DNA from: Ottowia thiooxydans DSM 14619 | GTDB taxonomy: Bacteria; Pseudomonadota; Gammaproteobacteria; Burkholderiales; Burkholderiaceae_C | Assembly (NCBI RefSeq): GCF_000422885.1 | Contig: NZ_AUGX01000017.1 | Span: 1 to 64,000, forward strand | Length of the DNA stretch: 64,000 nt | Direction of reading: 5' to 3' | Part shown: one piece after another, positions 1 to 6,636 of the stretch | How the letters are laid out: each line of letters begins with the position of its first letter | How positions within the stretch are numbered: position 1 is the stretch's first letter | Notes under the pieces: generated by a model | The model's input: only the letters and a program-made list of their open reading frames with translations | What the model was told of the DNA's origin: nothing | The model's database searches: none | Program-made: the position numbers and the translations under genes

Positions 1-258
1 GATCTTGATGCGCACAACTTGGGCCTGCTGAAGCTCGGCAAACACACGATCGAGCACGCCACTCTTGGACCAGCGACTCATGCGCGTGTAGATGGTGTGC
101 CAGTTGCCCAAGCGCGCGGGCAGGCCACGCCATTTGCACCCGTGCTCAGCAACATAAAGAATCGCATTCAACACGTCCAAATTCGAGACACCTACATTGC
201 CGCGCTGTACAGGAAGGCAGTGCTCGATCTGGGCAAACTGGGCTGGTGTGATTTCCAT
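1..258 (-). CDS. IS5-family transposase, N-terminal part (runs off the window)
   Basis: The reverse strand reads from an ATG at 258 through 86 codons to the window edge without a stop. The protein starts MEITPAQFAQIEHCLP and contains GNVGVSNLDVLNAIL, EHGCKWRGLPARLG and NWHTIYTRMSRWSKSGV. This is the DUF4096-type N-terminal helix-turn-helix domain of IS5-family (IS427-like group) transposases, which bind the element ends. In that group the transposase is often split into two frames joined by frameshifting, and the second half would lie left of this window. A terminal-repeat-like sequence lies just upstream of the start. The family call is firm; whether the element is intact cannot be seen. Confidence 0.88.
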   Translation of the reverse strand, partial: MEITPAQFAQIEHCLPVQRGNVGVSNLDVLNAILYVAEHGCKWRGLPARLGNWHTIYTRMSRWSKSGVLDRVFAELQQAQVVRIKI

Positions 259-311
259 GGATGAAGTATCTCTGGCCACCCAGGGGTAACTCAATTAGTG
301 TTAACACGCCC
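1..311 (-). mobile_element. End of an IS5/IS427-like insertion sequence
   Basis: Beside the transposase start the reverse strand begins GGGCGTGTTAACACTAATT (311 down to 293), which resembles the terminal inverted repeat of IS427-group elements. CTAG at 311-314 may be the target site or part of a short duplication. The other end and the second copy of the target duplication are outside the window, so the boundary is approximate. Confidence 0.7.
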
Positions 312-591
312 TAGTTCTTGAAGCAAGAGCATCTTTCAGTGCTCTTGCCCGCCCCTTGCCCCGCGCTCCTCAGCACGGCCTCAAGGGGTGGGATACCCAC
401 TCGGGCCATTGCTGCGCTCGGCCCTGCACTGTTAGTCGCAAGCGAATGGTTTTACGCCCTCTCCCGCATGGCAGTAGGAGCGCCGAACTTCAAGTGACTC
501 CCATGACCTGGATGCACTACCGATCATGATAAAAATGCAGTTAGCGAAAGGCCGAAAAATAATTTCAGCATGAGAACGCTAAGGAGCAACG
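312..591. other. Intergenic stretch between IS end and FRP-like gene
   Basis: I see no convincing gene in these 280 bases. The last part is AT-rich (around 525-570) and should hold the promoter of the FRP-like gene. AAGGAG at 580-585 lies 6 bases before its ATG. Confidence 0.5.
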
Positions 592-912
592 ATGTCAAAC
601 TTCAATTGGTCAGCATCAGAAAAAAAGATCGCACGCCGTGTTTACGACGAGGCCCTTCATGCCGAACTGGCCGAAGTCATGGCCGAGTTCAAGGAGAAAG
701 CGGCAGCCGCAGCAAGCCCAGACGATATGTGGGCCGTCGAGGAGTATTTAGAACGCAAGAGACGCGAGATCGACCGGAAGTACGACTACCGATATTCGCA
801 ACTGACTTTTGTTTTTGGATACCTGCTGAGGGAAGGTCGCATACAAGAGGCGCAACTAACCGGTTTGGCAGAGGACCGATTGTCAAACATCCGACTTATC
901 GCCTCGCTTTGA
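592..912 (+). CDS. Fluorescence recovery protein (FRP)-like protein
   Basis: This 106-residue protein matches, from memory, the fluorescence recovery protein of Synechocystis over nearly its full length. Both open with a W-S start (NWSASEKKIARRVYDEAL here). Both have an acidic-DDxW motif followed by KR-x-EID-x-KYD-x-R (here DDMWAVEEYLERKRREID then RKYDYRYSQLTFVFGYLL), and both end in L-x-GLAEDR-type residues. Cyanobacterial FRP is an all-helical dimer that speeds return of the active orange carotenoid protein to its resting form and so ends photoprotective quenching. No carotenoid protein or phycobilisome gene is in this window, so the target here is unknown. AAGGAG precedes the ATG by 6 bases. 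It stands alone between an IS end and an oppositely oriented gene. The family call is strong; the function is open. Confidence 0.85.
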   Translation: MSNFNWSASEKKIARRVYDEALHAELAEVMAEFKEKAAAAASPDDMWAVEEYLERKRREIDRKYDYRYSQLTFVFGYLLREGRIQEAQLTGLAEDRLSNIRLIASL

Positions 913-947
913 ACCTAGGATATACAACCTAGGGCCACCGCACCTAG

Positions 948-986
948 CTCGCGCCATCTCCTCTGAACTGAAGAGGCTAGCGCGAG
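948..986 (+). terminator. Hairpin after the FRP-like gene
   Basis: An interrupted stem pairs CTCGCGC (948-954) with GCGCGAG (980-986) and CCTCT (960-964) with AGAGG (972-976). There is no T-run, so intrinsic termination is uncertain. It lies between two convergent genes. Confidence 0.4.
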
Positions 987-1035
987 AGTCGGTATCCCTG
1001 AATCCACCCGCAATGCAATGCAATGCCGCCGCAGC

Positions 1036-2028
1036 TTAACCTTCGGGCTGAAGCCCTAACTCGGGGATGAGCTTTTTCCACAACTCCAGATCGCGCTTGA
1101 GATAGCTACCCAGTTCCGCAGGAGTGCCGGATCTCACGTGATAGCCGGTCTCTTCCAGGTTCTTTCGCACATCAGGTTTGGTCAGCACCGCATTGAGTTC
1201 GGCGTTGAGTCTGGCTACGATAGCCGGCGGAGTCTTCGCTGGCACGAGCATGGCAACCCAGCCGACGTTGAGCGGTATGCCCGACAGGCCCGCCTCCGAA
1301 GCGGTCGGGACATCGGCAATGACGGGGTTGCGCGCTGCCTCCATTGTGGCGAGTGCGCGCAGTTGACCTGAGCGGATGCGAGGTATGGCGCTTGGAAGAT
1401 CCAAGAATTGCATCGTGACCTGGCCGCCCATGACGGCAAGGCTCGATTCCGGCGTGGACTTGAAAGGCACGATGGTGATGTCCAAGCCAACCTTGCGCTT
1501 TAGCAATTCGCAAAACACCCGGGTACTTGCGTTACCAAAGCTGCAACTGCGGCGCTCCGGATCCTTTCTCATGAGTTCCACGAGCTCAGATAACGTCTTC
1601 ACAGGCAGTTTGGGATCGACCATCAACACATAGGGCGCCTGAACCATGTGGCCCACAGGTTCGAAATCACTCACTGCGTCGTATCGAACCCCTCGGATAA
1701 GGCCGGCCGGCCCGATGGTCAGACCTGAATTTGCCGCCACCAGTACGGTGTATCCATCAGGCTTCGAACGCGCCACAGCTTCAGTAGCCAGCGTTGAGAG
1801 CGCGCCAGGACGGTTCTCCACGATGATCGGCTGCCCAAGCGCAGCCGACATCCCTTGTGCCGTCAACCTCGCCTGAGCGTCTGTCGCCGAGCCTGGCCCG
1901 AAACCCAAAATGAATTTGATGGGCTTGTCTGGGTAGGTCGTTTGTGCATAGCCAGCGCTCCAGCCAAGGCAGCACAATAAAAACGGAGCGGCGGCTCTCA
2001 AAAGACTCGTCATTCGCAGAAAAGGCAT
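1036..2028 (-). CDS. Bug/TctC-family periplasmic solute-binding protein
   Basis: This 330-residue protein has a Sec signal peptide (basic start, hydrophobic stretch, SAGYAQ before TTYPDKPIKFIL). It carries family marks: YPDKPIK at the mature start, GFGPGSATDAQAR, GQPIIVENRPG and KPDGYTVLVA. Such proteins bind small carboxylates or related anions in the periplasm for TctA/TctB-type transporters; in Burkholderiales most are encoded far from any membrane partner, as here. AAGGAGA lies 6 bases before the ATG. It is the last gene of a leftward run behind a second Bug gene. The ligand cannot be told from sequence. Confidence 0.9.
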   Translation of the reverse strand: MPFLRMTSLLRAAAPFLLCCLGWSAGYAQTTYPDKPIKFILGFGPGSATDAQARLTAQGMSAALGQPIIVENRPGALSTLATEAVARSKPDGYTVLVAANSGLTIGPAGLIRGVRYDAVSDFEPVGHMVQAPYVLMVDPKLPVKTLSELVELMRKDPERRSCSFGNASTRVFCELLKRKVGLDITIVPFKSTPESSLAVMGGQVTMQFLDLPSAIPRIRSGQLRALATMEAARNPVIADVPTASEAGLSGIPLNVGWVAMLVPAKTPPAIVARLNAELNAVLTKPDVRKNLEETGYHVRSGTPAELGSYLKRDLELWKKLIPELGLQPEG

Positions 2029-2140
2029 AAAGGTCTCCTTGTCAATTTATGGTTAGTCACGCTCAAGGCCAGAGTTCAAGGCGTGATCCTTGGCTCAGGC
2101 AGGTGTCGGGGGATCCAGGGCGGGTTCACGCCCTAGTGCT

Positions 2141-3085
2141 TTATTCCTTCTTCAGCAAAGCTGAGTAAACGTCGCTCTCGTCCTTGATGCGCTGGGCAAT
2201 TTGTTGCCGGTCGAGCGCGAACTCGTCGTAACCTTTCTCGCGCATCTGCTGCTGGAATACAGGATCTTTCTGGATCGCTCGGAGCACAGCGGACAGCTTT
2301 TCGCTGGCAGCCGATGGGGTGCCTACATGCTGGAACAGGGACATCCAAGTAGTCACCTCATAGCTCGGATAACCCTGTTCGGCGATAGTGGGCAGCAGGG
2401 GGAAAGCAACGTTGCGCGTACGAGAGGTGACTCCGAAGGCATTGATACGATCATGTTTCGCATAACCCTGCGCAGTCGCAGTCACGTCAAAGAACATCGA
2501 AATCTGGCCTCCCAGCAGATCAGCCATAGCGGGTGCGGCCCCTTTATAGGGAACGTGTACCAACGACGTGCCCGAAAGCTTGCCCAGCAGTTCGCCCGAC
2601 AAGTGACTGGACGAGCCCTCACCGGAACTACCGTACGTCACACGGCCTGGGTGTGCCTTGGCATGTGCAATCAGCTCCCTGAGTGATTTCGCCGGCACGG
2701 CCTTGCTCACCAACAGCACGTTAGTAACGCTCACCACGCCGCCTATCGGAGCCAGGCTCTTCAGTGGCCCGAGTGCTGCATCCTTCGACACGAAAGGTGT
2801 CACGGTGAACGTACCGGCGGCGCCAAGATACAAGGTGTAGCCATCTGCGGGTGCGCCAGCTACTGCAGCGGCCCCCACCAATCCCGACGCGCCGGCGCGA
2901 CTTTCGACCACGACCGGTTGGCCTAGCGCGATCCCCATATGGTTTGCCAAGATCCGTGCTGCACCATCTACCGAACCTCCCGCTGGGTAGCCAATGACCA
3001 GCTTCAGGGGTCGCTCCGGATATGCTGCATGCGCAATACAAACCATGAGGCCAAGAATGACGGGTACGAAATATCGTTTGAGCAT
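2141..3085 (-). CDS. Bug/TctC-family periplasmic solute-binding protein
   Basis: I place the start at the ATG at 3085, because residues from there form a clean signal peptide (MLKRYFVPVILGLMVCIAHA) and the open frame upstream reads like noncoding sequence. The 314-residue product has AYPERPLKLVIGYPAGGSVDG, GQPVVVESRAGASG, ADGYTLYLG and VPYKGAAPAMADLLGGQI, all typical of Bug proteins. It lies 29 bases after a tautomerase gene and 112 bases before another Bug gene, in a leftward run led by an IclR regulator. The ribosome site is weak. The ligand is unknown but likely feeds the pathway of the neighbouring cupin, tautomerase and aldolase genes. Confidence 0.88.
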   Translation of the reverse strand: MLKRYFVPVILGLMVCIAHAAYPERPLKLVIGYPAGGSVDGAARILANHMGIALGQPVVVESRAGASGLVGAAAVAGAPADGYTLYLGAAGTFTVTPFVSKDAALGPLKSLAPIGGVVSVTNVLLVSKAVPAKSLRELIAHAKAHPGRVTYGSSGEGSSSHLSGELLGKLSGTSLVHVPYKGAAPAMADLLGGQISMFFDVTATAQGYAKHDRINAFGVTSRTRNVAFPLLPTIAEQGYPSYEVTTWMSLFQHVGTPSAASEKLSAVLRAIQKDPVFQQQMREKGYDEFALDRQQIAQRIKDESDVYSALLKKE

Positions 3086-3114
3086 TTGAATCCAAAGAAA
3101 ATAGTTGCGTTGCC

Positions 3115-3486
3115 TTATCGGCCCAGCGCCACCGCAGTAATCCCGCCGATGCCGACATTGGCCTTTGGCATGTCGTGAAATAGCACCCGTACGCTGGCGG
3201 CCGGCACCTCCCCCCAACGAGATGTGGCCGCGGTAAGAGCCCCGATGAGCAAGGCCTTCTGTTCGTCGGTGCGGCCGGGCATAAGGTAGATGTGCAATAA
3301 CGAAATGCCCTCACCCACACGGCCCCCCACCGAGACGCTGTCGGCCGGTTGACTGGCGAGCAGCACACGCACCTGGGCAAGAGGCGCATCGAGCGCTTCC
3401 ACGATGCATCGGGTATAGGCCGCGCACAACTCTGCTCGCACGGGGCTGGGATAGTCGCGGTTGAAAAATGCTTGCAGCATTGGCAT
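3115..3486 (-). CDS. Tautomerase-superfamily protein
   Basis: A 123-codon gene whose product begins Met-Pro, so Met removal would expose the N-terminal proline that acts as catalytic base in the 4-oxalocrotonate tautomerase superfamily. At about 122 residues it is twice the length of the classic 62-residue enzyme, as in the fused members (malonate semialdehyde decarboxylase or cis-CaaD types). RVLLASQPADSVSVGG and RVLFHDMPKANVGIGG look like equivalent segments of the two halves, supporting an internal duplication. AGGAGAAG precedes the ATG. It sits between a bicupin gene and a Bug gene, so it may tautomerise an enol ring-cleavage product. The substrate is unknown. Confidence 0.78.
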   Translation of the reverse strand: MPMLQAFFNRDYPSPVRAELCAAYTRCIVEALDAPLAQVRVLLASQPADSVSVGGRVGEGISLLHIYLMPGRTDEQKALLIGALTAATSRWGEVPAASVRVLFHDMPKANVGIGGITAVALGR

Positions 3487-3559
3487 GGCCTTCTCCTAGT
3501 TCGCCGTTTGCACATGGCGATCGACACTGCGGCATGCGGAAAGCATCCGCAAAGCGCAA

Positions 3560-4399
3560 TCAGGTGTCATTGGGATTTTTAGACTGGGTCGACGCCGGAA
3601 CCGACTGGGCGGGGGAGTGCCCTGCCGGTAAATCTGTGTAGCGGGAATCACGGGCATCTAACGCCAACACGACAGCTAGCGCGCCAGCAGCGCCAGCCGA
3701 CACATACAGCTCTGCATCGCGCTCTGTACGCGCCAGTGACTCCCAAGCGCCCAACGTCTGGTTCCCGCATTGCAGTTCTCCTTCAAGCACCAGAACAAAC
3801 TGTGCAACAGACAGAGAAAAGGCAGGAAGACATGCCTGTGCCCCTGGCCCCAAACGAATGGCTGCGGCGCTGGCACTGCCGTCGGCATTCGCGGCCAAGG
3901 GCTCCGGTACTTGTGCCTCGTGCGCATTCAAGTGCATAGGCGCACCATCGGTTGGCACTACAGGACCTGCATGGAACTGGTGTCTTGGCCCGCGCTGAAG
4001 CATCTCCCTATGTTCCGGAATGAAATATGCGCCAGCCTCAAACACCGCACGTATAGTGAAATAGGAAAGTCCCTCGGGACCAGCCACCAGGGGCCCGTAA
4101 CCCGTATAGGCGGTTGCATAGTGGATCAACCCAGGTGACAGAGCATGCGGCCCCAACGTACCGCTTCCCTGCACCACCACTTGGAATTCATTCTGTGCAT
4201 GGAAATGCGTTCGCAGGCAAGAGCCAGGGGGTTGCTCGACGAGAAACACGGTCGGAGAGAGCAAAGGATCTCGAGTGGATTCCATCCACTCGCTCTTGCA
4301 ATAGGTAAAACCATCGCCAGCAGTAAGCTGACGGTGTGTAGCATCTCTGCGACTGCGCAGGCCGTAGAACATGGCGTCAGTAGACATAGCGCCAATCAT
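3560..4399 (-). CDS. Bicupin protein, metal site in the N-terminal cupin
   Basis: About 279 residues from the ATG at 4399 (a second ATG at 4387 is equally possible; neither has a strong ribosome site). The N-terminal half has a cupin motif THFHAQNEFQVVVQG (His-x-His with a following Glu) and a later His in PGLIHYATAY, a plausible metal site. The C-terminal half keeps the barrel pattern (FVLVLEGELQCGNQTLGAWESLA) but has lost the His ligands. Unlike gentisate dioxygenase, it cannot be assigned a reaction; a ring-cleavage dioxygenase or an isomerase are possibilities. It lies between the IclR gene and the tautomerase gene, reading the same way. Confidence 0.6.
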   Translation of the reverse strand: MIGAMSTDAMFYGLRSRRDATHRQLTAGDGFTYCKSEWMESTRDPLLSPTVFLVEQPPGSCLRTHFHAQNEFQVVVQGSGTLGPHALSPGLIHYATAYTGYGPLVAGPEGLSYFTIRAVFEAGAYFIPEHREMLQRGPRHQFHAGPVVPTDGAPMHLNAHEAQVPEPLAANADGSASAAAIRLGPGAQACLPAFSLSVAQFVLVLEGELQCGNQTLGAWESLARTERDAELYVSAGAAGALAVVLALDARDSRYTDLPAGHSPAQSVPASTQSKNPNDT

Positions 4400-4549
4400 T
4401 CAGCGATACGCCCGATATATTCCGCTCTGTGATGTGATTGACGCCAATGAGGTGGCGTCGGACAGACCAGCTTTCTTTCTGAGAACTCATCAACGTCTTT
4501 CTTGTTTGAATTGCATGCCGCAAACTTGCGTCCGTGACGTCTCATTACG

Positions 4550-5422
4550 TCAATAGCGCTCCTGAATTTGCGCGGCAGCATCCCTTACGAATGGCAGCAC
4601 TCGATCAATCCACGCGGTGCCCATCGACTGCGAAAAAGTCGAACAACCCAAGACACCTAGAAGCTCACCGGACCGGGCGTGCAGGGGCACTGCCAACGCG
4701 CTGCTCTCGTCTGGTCGAACGCCGGCGCGTAAGCCGTAGCCCTGCCGCCGTGTTCGCCGCACAAGGCTCCGAAGCGCCTTGCTCTCAAACGTTGCATCAG
4801 CGAGCCCCTGCTCCCGCAGCAGTTGCACAAGGATGCGCCGCTCTGAGGCGCTGCAGTAGGACAAATAGGCAGTGCCCAGGGCCGTGTCCAACAGGCCATA
4901 GCGCTGGCCGAAGCAAGTCGGCTTCATGGAATAGGGGCTGTAGGGCATGGTGCAGAGGTTGGCTCTTACCTCTGCACCATCAATCACGCCGACCGCCAAG
5001 GGCCACTTCATCTTTTTGGTTGCCCCGACCAAAATTGGACCGGCAATATCGGCAAGTCGATTTTTTTCCACGAACCCACTGCTCAAATTACGGACGTGGT
5101 GGGTCAACCGGTACTGACCATACATCTCCTCGCCGCTATGCACATAGTGCTCAGCTTGCAATGTTGCCAACAAGCGATGGACAGTGGTTTTTGGAAGGCC
5201 CGTGCGCTGCTGCAAATCCTGTAATGACCAGATCTCGCGCTCATTCAACGCGCGCAGGACCAACAACGCCCGCTGAATGGATCGGGTCAGCCCTTCCGTC
5301 GGCGGCAGGGGTGTTTCCCTGCCTGCTCCGACACGCGGTGAGTGAGATCGTCGGTGTGCTCTTCCGGGCGAGTCTCGTTCAACGGACGATCCCCGCGGTG
5401 CACGCTTTTGCGCGTATTCCAT
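4550..5422 (-). CDS. IclR-family transcriptional regulator
   Basis: This 290-residue protein has an IclR winged helix near residues 45-110 (TRSIQRALLVLRALN, SLQDLQQRTGLPKTTVHRLLATL) and an effector domain after it. GGAGA lies 6 bases before the ATG at 5422. The first 40 or so residues are basic and low in complexity, longer than usual, so a later start is possible. The gene heads a leftward run (bicupin, tautomerase, two Bug genes) and faces an aldolase gene across about 420 bases that contain a perfect palindrome. IclR regulators commonly control ring-cleavage or carboxylic-acid pathways next door. Confidence 0.88.
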   Translation of the reverse strand: MEYAQKRAPRGSSVERDSPGRAHRRSHSPRVGAGRETPLPPTEGLTRSIQRALLVLRALNEREIWSLQDLQQRTGLPKTTVHRLLATLQAEHYVHSGEEMYGQYRLTHHVRNLSSGFVEKNRLADIAGPILVGATKKMKWPLAVGVIDGAEVRANLCTMPYSPYSMKPTCFGQRYGLLDTALGTAYLSYCSASERRILVQLLREQGLADATFESKALRSLVRRTRRQGYGLRAGVRPDESSALAVPLHARSGELLGVLGCSTFSQSMGTAWIDRVLPFVRDAAAQIQERY

Positions 5423-5838
5423 ACATGTCTCCAGTTGGGACCATCCGGTAACCCTTATGCGTCAGGCTTGGGCCTTTCGCAGCGATCACTGTCGCTTTGA
5501 TGGAGGGAATTCTAGGACCGACATGGGTGCAACTACAAGCGTCTCAACTCCTTCATTCCCATGATTCCGTCTGACGGAATTCATGAAGTTCCAAGCCCTG
5601 AGAAAGCCGTGGATAGATAGACTCACTCGTAACGCAGGCTTATCAGAGCCAAGCATGGTGGATAGGGAGATTGGTTGTGAGCTTCATCCCTCAAAGCGCG
5701 AACCGCCTGCACGTTACCCGCATTTCAAATGAGCAGTGGCATTCAATCAAAACACACGCCTTGCTGGTCGCGTGATTGAACCAACCGTTTCGTTTTGATT
5801 TCCTTTCGTTCCTGCTGATCCGTAAAAAGCTTCCCTCT
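5423..5838. other. Divergent control region between IclR and aldolase genes
   Basis: No gene is evident in these 416 bases. The stretch holds one perfect palindrome (listed separately) and AT-richer parts around 5690-5830 that could serve the aldolase promoter. Confidence 0.5.
5564..5580. promoter_or_regulatory. Palindrome, probable IclR operator
   Basis: ATTCCGTC-T-GACGGAAT is a perfect 17-base palindrome, about 140 bases upstream of the IclR start and 260 bases upstream of the aldolase start. Its form (TTCCG/CGGAA arms) resembles sites bound by IclR-family regulators. Binding is inferred. Confidence 0.55.
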
Positions 5839-6636
5839 ATGACCAACATTCACCACCAGCACGCGGTTGCTTTCCGTCAGCGGTTCTGCAACCGGGAGAC
5901 GCTTCTTGGAACATTTATAAAATCTTCCGGTGGTGCACCCGTGGAGATCATGGGCCAGGCGGGGTTTGACTTCGTGGTTGTAGATGCGGAGCACGCGCCT
6001 TTCGATCGGGCAGCTGTCGAACTATCCATACTCGCAGCCCGGGCTAGCGGCATTGCATCCATTGTCCGGGTACCCAGTGCCTCGCCGCACGCGCTTTTGG
6101 CGCCGCTGGACGATGGCGCCTGCGGCGTGATGGTGCCTCATGTGCGCTCCGCGCAGGTGGCACGAGATATCGTGGCAGCCTGCCGCTACGCCTGGGGGCG
6201 AGGCTTCTCCAATTCTCCCCGGGCGGGCGGGTATGGCGTTCGCACAATGTGGGAGCATGTAGACGCCGCGGACCAGGCGGTTACGGTGATCGCCATGATC
6301 GAAGATCCTGAGGCTTTGGATGAGATCGATGACATCCTGGCAGTAGACGGGATCGACGGCGTGTTCATTGGCCGCGGCGACTTGGCTGTGGCATTGCAGG
6401 ACCGCGAGCCAGGCAGCCCTCAGGTGGCCCAACTCACTGATCGAGTGCTCCAGGCTTGTGCCCGCGCAGACAAACCTGCTTGCCTTCTCACCACCCGCTC
6501 ATCTGAGGCGCAGACTTTGCAAGCTTTCGGTGCCAGCGCGTTCGTTATCGCATCCGACCAAGGGTTCATGCGCACCGCCGCAGAACAGGCACAAAGCCAG
6601 TTCCGTGCCGCATTGTCATCTTTCACCACAACCTAG
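5839..6636 (+). CDS. HpcH/HpaI-family aldolase
   Basis: The product from the ATG at 5839 is 265 residues. It has the family's marks: TFIKSSGGAPVEIMGQAGFDFVVVDAEHAPFD (split here as GFDFVVVDAEHAPFD, the conserved Asp-x-Glu-His), DDGACGVMVPHVRSA with metal-site context, and DGVFIGRGDLAVAL (Gly-x-x-Asp-Leu). HpcH/HpaI enzymes are metal-dependent class II aldolases that split 4-hydroxy-2-oxo acids to pyruvate and an aldehyde, the usual last step of meta-cleavage pathways. An ATG 21 codons upstream at 5776 also opens the frame but would add an unlikely Phe/Leu-rich leader. It is followed 59 bases later by a bicupin gene. Confidence 0.9.
   Translation: MTNIHHQHAVAFRQRFCNRETLLGTFIKSSGGAPVEIMGQAGFDFVVVDAEHAPFDRAAVELSILAARASGIASIVRVPSASPHALLAPLDDGACGVMVPHVRSAQVARDIVAACRYAWGRGFSNSPRAGGYGVRTMWEHVDAADQAVTVIAMIEDPEALDEIDDILAVDGIDGVFIGRGDLAVALQDREPGSPQVAQLTDRVLQACARADKPACLLTTRSSEAQTLQAFGASAFVIASDQGFMRTAAEQAQSQFRAALSSFTTT

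Follow-up and report, generated by a model that had tools for sequence, protein, structure and literature searches.

An FRP-like protein of Ottowia thiooxydans in a genome without a match to the orange carotenoid protein

Introduction

Relatives of the fluorescence recovery protein (FRP) in genomes without an orange carotenoid protein (OCP) have been a puzzle in print since 2023, when Steube et al. (PMC10172135, cited here and below from excerpts of its text) named the FRP-like proteins (FRPLs), found mainly in proteobacteria and acidobacteria, and solved the structure of the FRPL from P. borbori (8AG8). According to these excerpts, no OCP, HCP or CTDH was found in the FRPL-bearing genomes, and the function of FRPLs was left open. 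The level and location of P. borbori FRPL change with starvation, with the protein forming polar foci; it leaves OCP1 virtually unaffected, and an FRPL from Desulfobacteraceae accelerates OCP recovery in vitro. The same excerpts describe cyanobacterial FRP as recruited from a non-cyanobacterial FRPL branch, cite two earlier papers for FRP homologues of this type, and give F76, K102 and L106 as the OCP-contact residues of FRP, of which F76 and K102 also appear in PMC6155142. In the full text of open-licence PubMed Central, we found no FRPL paper besides Steube et al. among the matches listed.

Here we describe frpl, a gene in a 64,000-nucleotide stretch of Ottowia thiooxydans DSM 14619 (contig NZ_AUGX01000017.1; hereafter the window). 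An initial annotation had recognized an FRP homologue at this position and held that FRP has no known role beyond switching off OCP, a statement that is out of date given the FRPLs published for OCP-free genomes (PMC10172135, excerpts). O. thiooxydans is an additional host for this already described family, and a comparison of residues between FRPLs and FRPs yields a contrast that is new. Also new are a congener locus that lacks the neighbouring insertion sequence and a survey of the genes around FRPL.

Assignment of the frpl product

The frpl reading frame runs uninterrupted from ATG to TGA, with a Shine-Dalgarno-like sequence five bases 5' of the start codon (Table 1). Its product matches the Pfam FRP family (PF18032) with 75.7 bits (E 3.9e-21; cut-off 26.6) over profile positions 1-98 of 99 and is thus a full-length family member. 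FRP is the sole Pfam family above its cut-off, as the matches to CHIP_TPR_N and ABC1 both fall under their own cut-offs, and the search gave no better match to an unrelated family. The motifs on which the homology had been proposed (DDMW, KRREIDRKYDYR and FVFGYLLREG) are all present.

Table 1. Features at the frpl end of the window.
Feature	Position	Strand	Basis
N-terminal part of a presumed IS5-type transposase, open at contig end	1..294	-	ORF and genome copies
Outer end of the insertion sequence (IS), counterpart at start of contig C50	295..314	.	19/20 bases common with G000:C50:125-144
Upstream stretch conserved with congener G004	483..591	.	blastn 78.5% over window 483-751 vs L107; alignment
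Shine-Dalgarno-like AAGGAG	581..586	+	read from sequence
frpl, FRP-like protein, 106 aa, intact	592..912	+	Pfam PF18032, PDB 8AG8, model TM
Convergent downstream gene, not an operon partner; product taken to be a TctC/Bug-type solute-binding protein	1036..2028	-	ORF list

A phmmer search of the PDB returned P. borbori FRPL as the best match (8AG8, 1.2e-38), ahead of both cyanobacterial FRPs, those of Synechocystis (4JDX, 5.9e-18) and Fremyella (5TZ0, 1.5e-17). The structure comparison advised in the initial annotation had been meant for the dimer; our AlphaFold model is of the monomer (pLDDT 95.1), and in a Foldseek search it superposes best on 8AG8 (TM 0.96, rmsd 1.0). The TM to FRP chains is 0.79-0.89 across six chains, with 0.89 for 5TZ0 and 0.79-0.81 in four chains of 4JDX and 4JDQ; chains E and F of 4JDQ, which have another shape, reach only 0.36.

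In a tree built by a quick method from few columns and with many open forks, one branch with SH-aLRT 99 parts the 71 FRPL rows from the 26 FRP rows. The frpl product lies on the FRPL side, nearest to a Variovorax row (70% identity), and is the only FRP match in the Ottowia genome by profile search. We regard it as an FRPL with near certainty. The dN/dS between frpl and the copy in congener G004 is 0.15 (52 codons), and values of 0.05-0.46 were obtained in 10 of 11 FRPL pairs, the eleventh being saturated; the compared FRPLs therefore look to be under purifying selection.

The closest described protein, P. borbori FRPL, has the same length as the frpl product and 61% identity to it in the structural alignment, and its genome is likewise without an OCP-type match. 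It differs in its host, in its gene surroundings and at the OCP-contact positions, where F, Y and S are reported (PMC10172135, excerpts) against F73, N99 and I103 in O. thiooxydans. Cyanobacterial FRP (Slr1964, 4JDX; Fremyella, 5TZ0) shares with the frpl product the Pfam family, the fold (A-chain TM 0.80 and 0.89), the equivalents of W50 and R60, and the EID-KYD block. It sits, however, on the opposite side of the supported branch and carries 15-19 of 19 FRP-diagnostic residues, positions we chose from the FRP consensus, compared with 4/19 in the frpl product, for which no OCP was found in the genome or beside the gene.

Contact residues and polar patch

Only the phenylalanine of the three OCP-contact residues is kept in the frpl product. 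In FRPs, F76, K102 and L106 are nearly invariant (31/32, 32/32 and 31/32), whereas among 13 FRPLs recruited by profile the same positions hold F in 1/13, K in 0/12 and L in 3/12. The reverse pattern is seen in a group of polar positions. The profile-recruited FRPLs conserve K11 (11/12), R15 (12/12), K34 (12/13), R67 (12/13), Y68 (12/13) and S69 (12/13), while the equivalent positions in 32 FRPs carry K in 23, R in 4 (Q in 22), K in 4 (R in 19), R in 18, Y in 22 and S in 22, respectively. W47 (12/13) and R57 (9/13) of the FRPLs correspond to W50 and R60, present in 32/32 FRPs, and are therefore part of the FRP surface shared with FRPLs. A larger group of 49 FRPLs under 70% identity gives the same patch pattern, but it is a biased set, since the 80 pattern-recruited loci were recruited in part on this motif; the 13 rows recruited by profile allow a fairer comparison.

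The AlphaFold model places residues 64-70 in a loop that connects helix 45-63 to helix 71-80, and the hairpin would bring this loop near the start of helix 1. Judged by aligned residues, FRPLs keep a polar patch that is relaxed in FRPs, and FRPs have fixed OCP-contact positions that vary in FRPLs. Three points temper a functional reading of the patch: most FRPs have R in place of K34, which is only a mild change; W47 and R57 show part of the FRP surface to be shared; and the conserved residues may hold the structure together through salt bridges instead of binding a partner.

Search for an OCP-type partner

The initial annotation had proposed either that a carotenoid-protein partner is encoded elsewhere in the genome or that heterotrophs put the fold to another use. 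The former was not borne out. Carot_N has no match in the O. thiooxydans genome (G000; 7.05 Mb, 99.37% complete, 78 contigs), nor in P. borbori, Variovorax sp. dw_308 or Ramlibacter sp. WS9; in a cyanobacterium used as positive control it has three. A full OCP query with the N- and C-terminal domains gave 0 matches in G000 at E <= 0.1 and none in P. borbori; in the control cyanobacterium it gave four, namely OCP, two N-terminal HCP-like proteins, one of them containing an internal stop, and one C-terminal CTDH-like protein. The second proposal agrees with our results and is already the published view (PMC10172135, excerpts).

Gene context separates the two groups as well. FRP was found in 46 of 116 genomes of the control cyanobacterium's class, and an OCP-like gene lies within ~1.5 kb at 28 of 30 of these loci, the 30 being the best-scoring of the 46. 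Among 101 FRPL locus records, some of which overlap and whose flanks range from <1 kb to 10 kb, a single one, the cyanobacterial L086, has an OCP-like neighbour. We are confident that the frpl product is not an OCP regulator in O. thiooxydans, in agreement with the view that OCP is not the target of FRPLs.

The C-terminal domain of OCP is NTF2-like, and members of this fold do occur beside some FRPL genes: in L015 a DUF4440/SnoaL gene lies downstream of FRPL, and in L087 a SnoaL_3 gene lies upstream of it. SnoaL_2 accounts for 2 of 111 members in one set of FRPL neighbours, and the set of 100 includes the L015 gene (first 25 of 154 families). NTF2-like families make up 1/66 of the small proteins near FRPL and at least 2/79 of those far from it. 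An NTF2-like protein as FRPL partner is unsupported.

Gene neighbourhood

The absence of an operon partner, already pointed out in the initial annotation, agrees with the convergent gene downstream of frpl and with the divergent gene upstream in the congener. By eye, the window at 1036-6636 holds what we take to be two TctC-type genes, a tautomerase-like gene, a cupin-type dioxygenase, an IclR-type regulator and an aldolase, which looks like an aromatic or hydroxy-acid degradation cluster.

A survey of homologue surroundings, suggested at the outset, revealed no dominating family among 211 dereplicated neighbours (of 215 representatives of at least 60 aa), and what it did bring out was an orientation bias. 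The highest family counts were GNAT 5/111, DJ-1 3/111, glyoxalase 3/111 and short-chain dehydrogenase 3/100, tallied in two sets over the first 25 of 154 and the first 25 of 143 families. These counts leave out L102, L108 and L109, taken as duplicates of L028, L036 and L066, and the broken L107, and they depend on a home-made composition scorer as gene caller, whose neighbour calls can err. The upstream gene is co-directional with FRPL at 39/43 loci, compared with 426/648 for other genes there (p 0.0003) and 28/46 for the downstream gene; with stricter neighbours the figures are 29/31 upstream versus 18/30 downstream. For orientation, FRPL rows at least 70% identical to a kept row were left out; the 49 loci kept, of which 6 lack a called upstream gene and 3 a called downstream gene, can still share surroundings, as with ThuA in L036 and L049. 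Co-directional upstream genes lie within 150 bases of FRPL at 28 loci and within 200 bases at 30; the latter (28 annotated, plus L016 and L072) belong to many unrelated families, and four to none. We read this as FRPL often riding on a local transcript and not as a partner signal, the pattern having been spotted after the fact.

Some neighbours recur locally. DJ-1/ThuA genes adjoin FRPL in L016, L062, L072 and the ThuA-type Mesorhizobium loci, an observation made without a control. In the Mesorhizobium group, FRPL follows an MmyB-type regulator in L034, L035, L043, L051, L052, L054, L066, L080 and L081 (by Pfam for L066, by eye for the rest), with a LysR-like gene (by eye) pointing towards FRPL, in L066 with one gene between; in other loci of this group, such as L036 (Pfam), it follows ThuA. 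Toxin-antitoxin genes occur within two genes of FRPL in several loci. Counted by Pfam names among small proteins (55-135 aa) at loci outside the Mesorhizobium group, they make up 11/66 near FRPL versus 7/79 far from it (p 0.21), so that a link specific to FRPL is unsupported.

A promoter scan of window positions 280-1080 found no sigma-70-like site. In 87 FRPL upstream stretches, many of them near-identical Mesorhizobium sequences, an EcfG-like motif occurs once, against a mean of 0.7 in shuffles that keep base content only, and no sigma-54 or LexA-like site was found. None of the motifs tried marks FRPL as a stress gene, which counts against a stress reading. Some 7-letter words are in excess over the shuffles in these 87 stretches. 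Rfam has no match in window 1-3000.

Locus history and spread

The IS end noted beside frpl in the initial annotation, where it was given its presumed family name, IS5, is real. Positions 1-312 have five 100% copies in the genome, their own included (four full, one of 300/312 bases), and one 72% copy. The five 100% copies sit within 30 bases of contig ends, and the window start is such an end. Sequence past the IS end, as far as 428-468, is found again with ~97% identity close to the ends of contigs C10 and C5; therefore, a repeat longer than the IS breaks the assembly.

The start of C50 carries the same outer IS end as the window and presumably encodes the C-terminal end of the IS5-type transposase, and the N-terminal end is encoded on the minus strand at the window start. 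In congener G004, the 3.5 kb that precede the FRPL gene match G000:C50:590-3934 at 80%, and 68 bases, with no IS, separate this C50-like part from the part that matches the window. This fits the insertion in O. thiooxydans of one IS and some repeated flanking sequence between the divergent gene and FRPL, where we infer the linkage across the gap and the IS end is multi-copy. Because the congener has FRPL at apparently the same site without the IS, the IS is probably the later arrival. The divergent gene of G004 resembles nylon hydrolases, ThnT and L-aminopeptidase/D-esterase. The FRPL copy of G004 (L107:9986-10253) is similar only up to codon 52, ~110 bases short of the end of its contig, and is therefore broken or misassembled. 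In the other three congeners FRPL lies, by eye, in different surroundings, which suggests that the gene moved, or was lost and regained, within the genus.

FRP-profile matches are thinly spread. With the own genome included throughout, the genus has them in 5/29 genomes (one match falling below the family cut-off), the relatives in 6/100, the family in 8/399, the class in 1/370 (the own genome) and the phylum in 4/398. The initial annotation had raised transfer on account of the IS; the patchiness still suggests transfer or loss on a longer timescale. The genome-contig scan confirmed 159 relatives, of which the best 80 were kept, and more distant FRPLs may be missing from it. Plasmids, phages and viral contigs gave no FRPL match, and phage or plasmid carriage was set aside.

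Two loci carry unexpected labels. L089:148-507 is an FRPL gene near the edge of a single Methanothrix-labelled MAG contig, with a G+C of 0.494 compared with 0.508 for the contig. It has 10/19 FRP-diagnostic residues, adjoins the FRPs in the tree (support 90), and could be an FRPL-to-FRP intermediate. The sets holding its neighbours gave DUF2111 (archaeal by description), OapB and OapC in tallies that leave the individual member unnamed, and one neighbour, searched against the PDB, gave no match. L038, labelled Mycobacterium sp. KBS0706, pairs with Inquilinus limosus (support 100), and its label may be wrong.

Discussion

We consider the frpl product most likely to be a dimeric, stress-related regulator that binds a protein other than OCP. 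FRPL would act as an alpha-helical dimer that binds another protein, much as FRP does via its head domains. The predicted client would be neither OCP nor a protein encoded beside frpl, and the contact would likely include the start of helix 1 (K11, R15) and the helix 2-3 loop D65-Y66-R67-Y68-S69-Q70. The role would probably lie in stress or starvation, going by the published P. borbori data (PMC10172135, excerpts), and in O. thiooxydans frpl appears to form a single-gene unit with its own upstream region. This choice of patch and mechanism is tentative, and we would put it at slightly less than an even call.

A more appreciable competitor, though still an unlikely one, is that FRPL has no specific partner and serves as a structural or chaperone-like stress protein, whose patch would do no more than hold helix 1 to the helix 2-3 junction. 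The lack of a dominating neighbour family, the patchy distribution and the helix boundaries of the model, by which the patch would join the two ends of the helical hairpin, speak for it; FRPs, however, retain the hairpin yet relax the patch residues, which would be difficult to explain if the patch served structure alone. We give a lower place to the idea that FRPL is a general accessory encoded last in short operons, assisting whichever gene immediately precedes it. The orientation bias and the short upstream distances favour such a role, but it seems improbable given that the upstream genes come from families with no relation to one another (HepT, MmyB-type regulator, ThuA, TPP enzyme, cupin, MFS, GNAT, SnoaL and others), that the bias was noticed only afterwards, and that the upstream gene is divergent in G004, the congener with the shared site.

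The remaining two alternatives are very hard to maintain. A true FRP that regulates an OCP-like carotenoid protein which has escaped detection, here or in a partner organism, would account for the shared fold and Pfam family and for the retained F73, and the Desulfobacteraceae FRPL does speed OCP recovery in vitro (PMC10172135, excerpts). Against this stand the lack of any OCP, HCP or CTDH match with a positive control, N99 and I103 in place of K102 and L106, and the close kinship to P. borbori FRPL with its virtual lack of effect on OCP1. Recent import of frpl by the adjacent IS is just as improbable: the transposase frame ends 297 bases before the frpl start and the IS end is present in five identical copies, but G004 combines the same upstream gene with FRPL and has 68 bases, and no IS, between the stretches that match C50 and the window.

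Extending the preferred reading of a regulator with a client other than OCP, one can imagine a single ancestral binding site common to FRPLs, formed by K11, R15 and the D65-Y66-R67-Y68-S69-Q70 loop and serving a widely conserved client. Cyanobacterial recruitment for OCP would then have fixed a second surface (H53, D54, S57, G65, F76, K102, L106) and released the old site. We offer this as speculation that may well prove wrong. The residue contrast singles out positions for mutation in P. borbori FRPL and would make FRPL function directly testable. In the published account (PMC10172135, excerpts), a light-protection regulator was derived from FRPLs; if the ancestral-site scenario were true, FRPL would be a general stress regulator, and FRP and FRPL would represent a traceable swap of binding faces on one scaffold.
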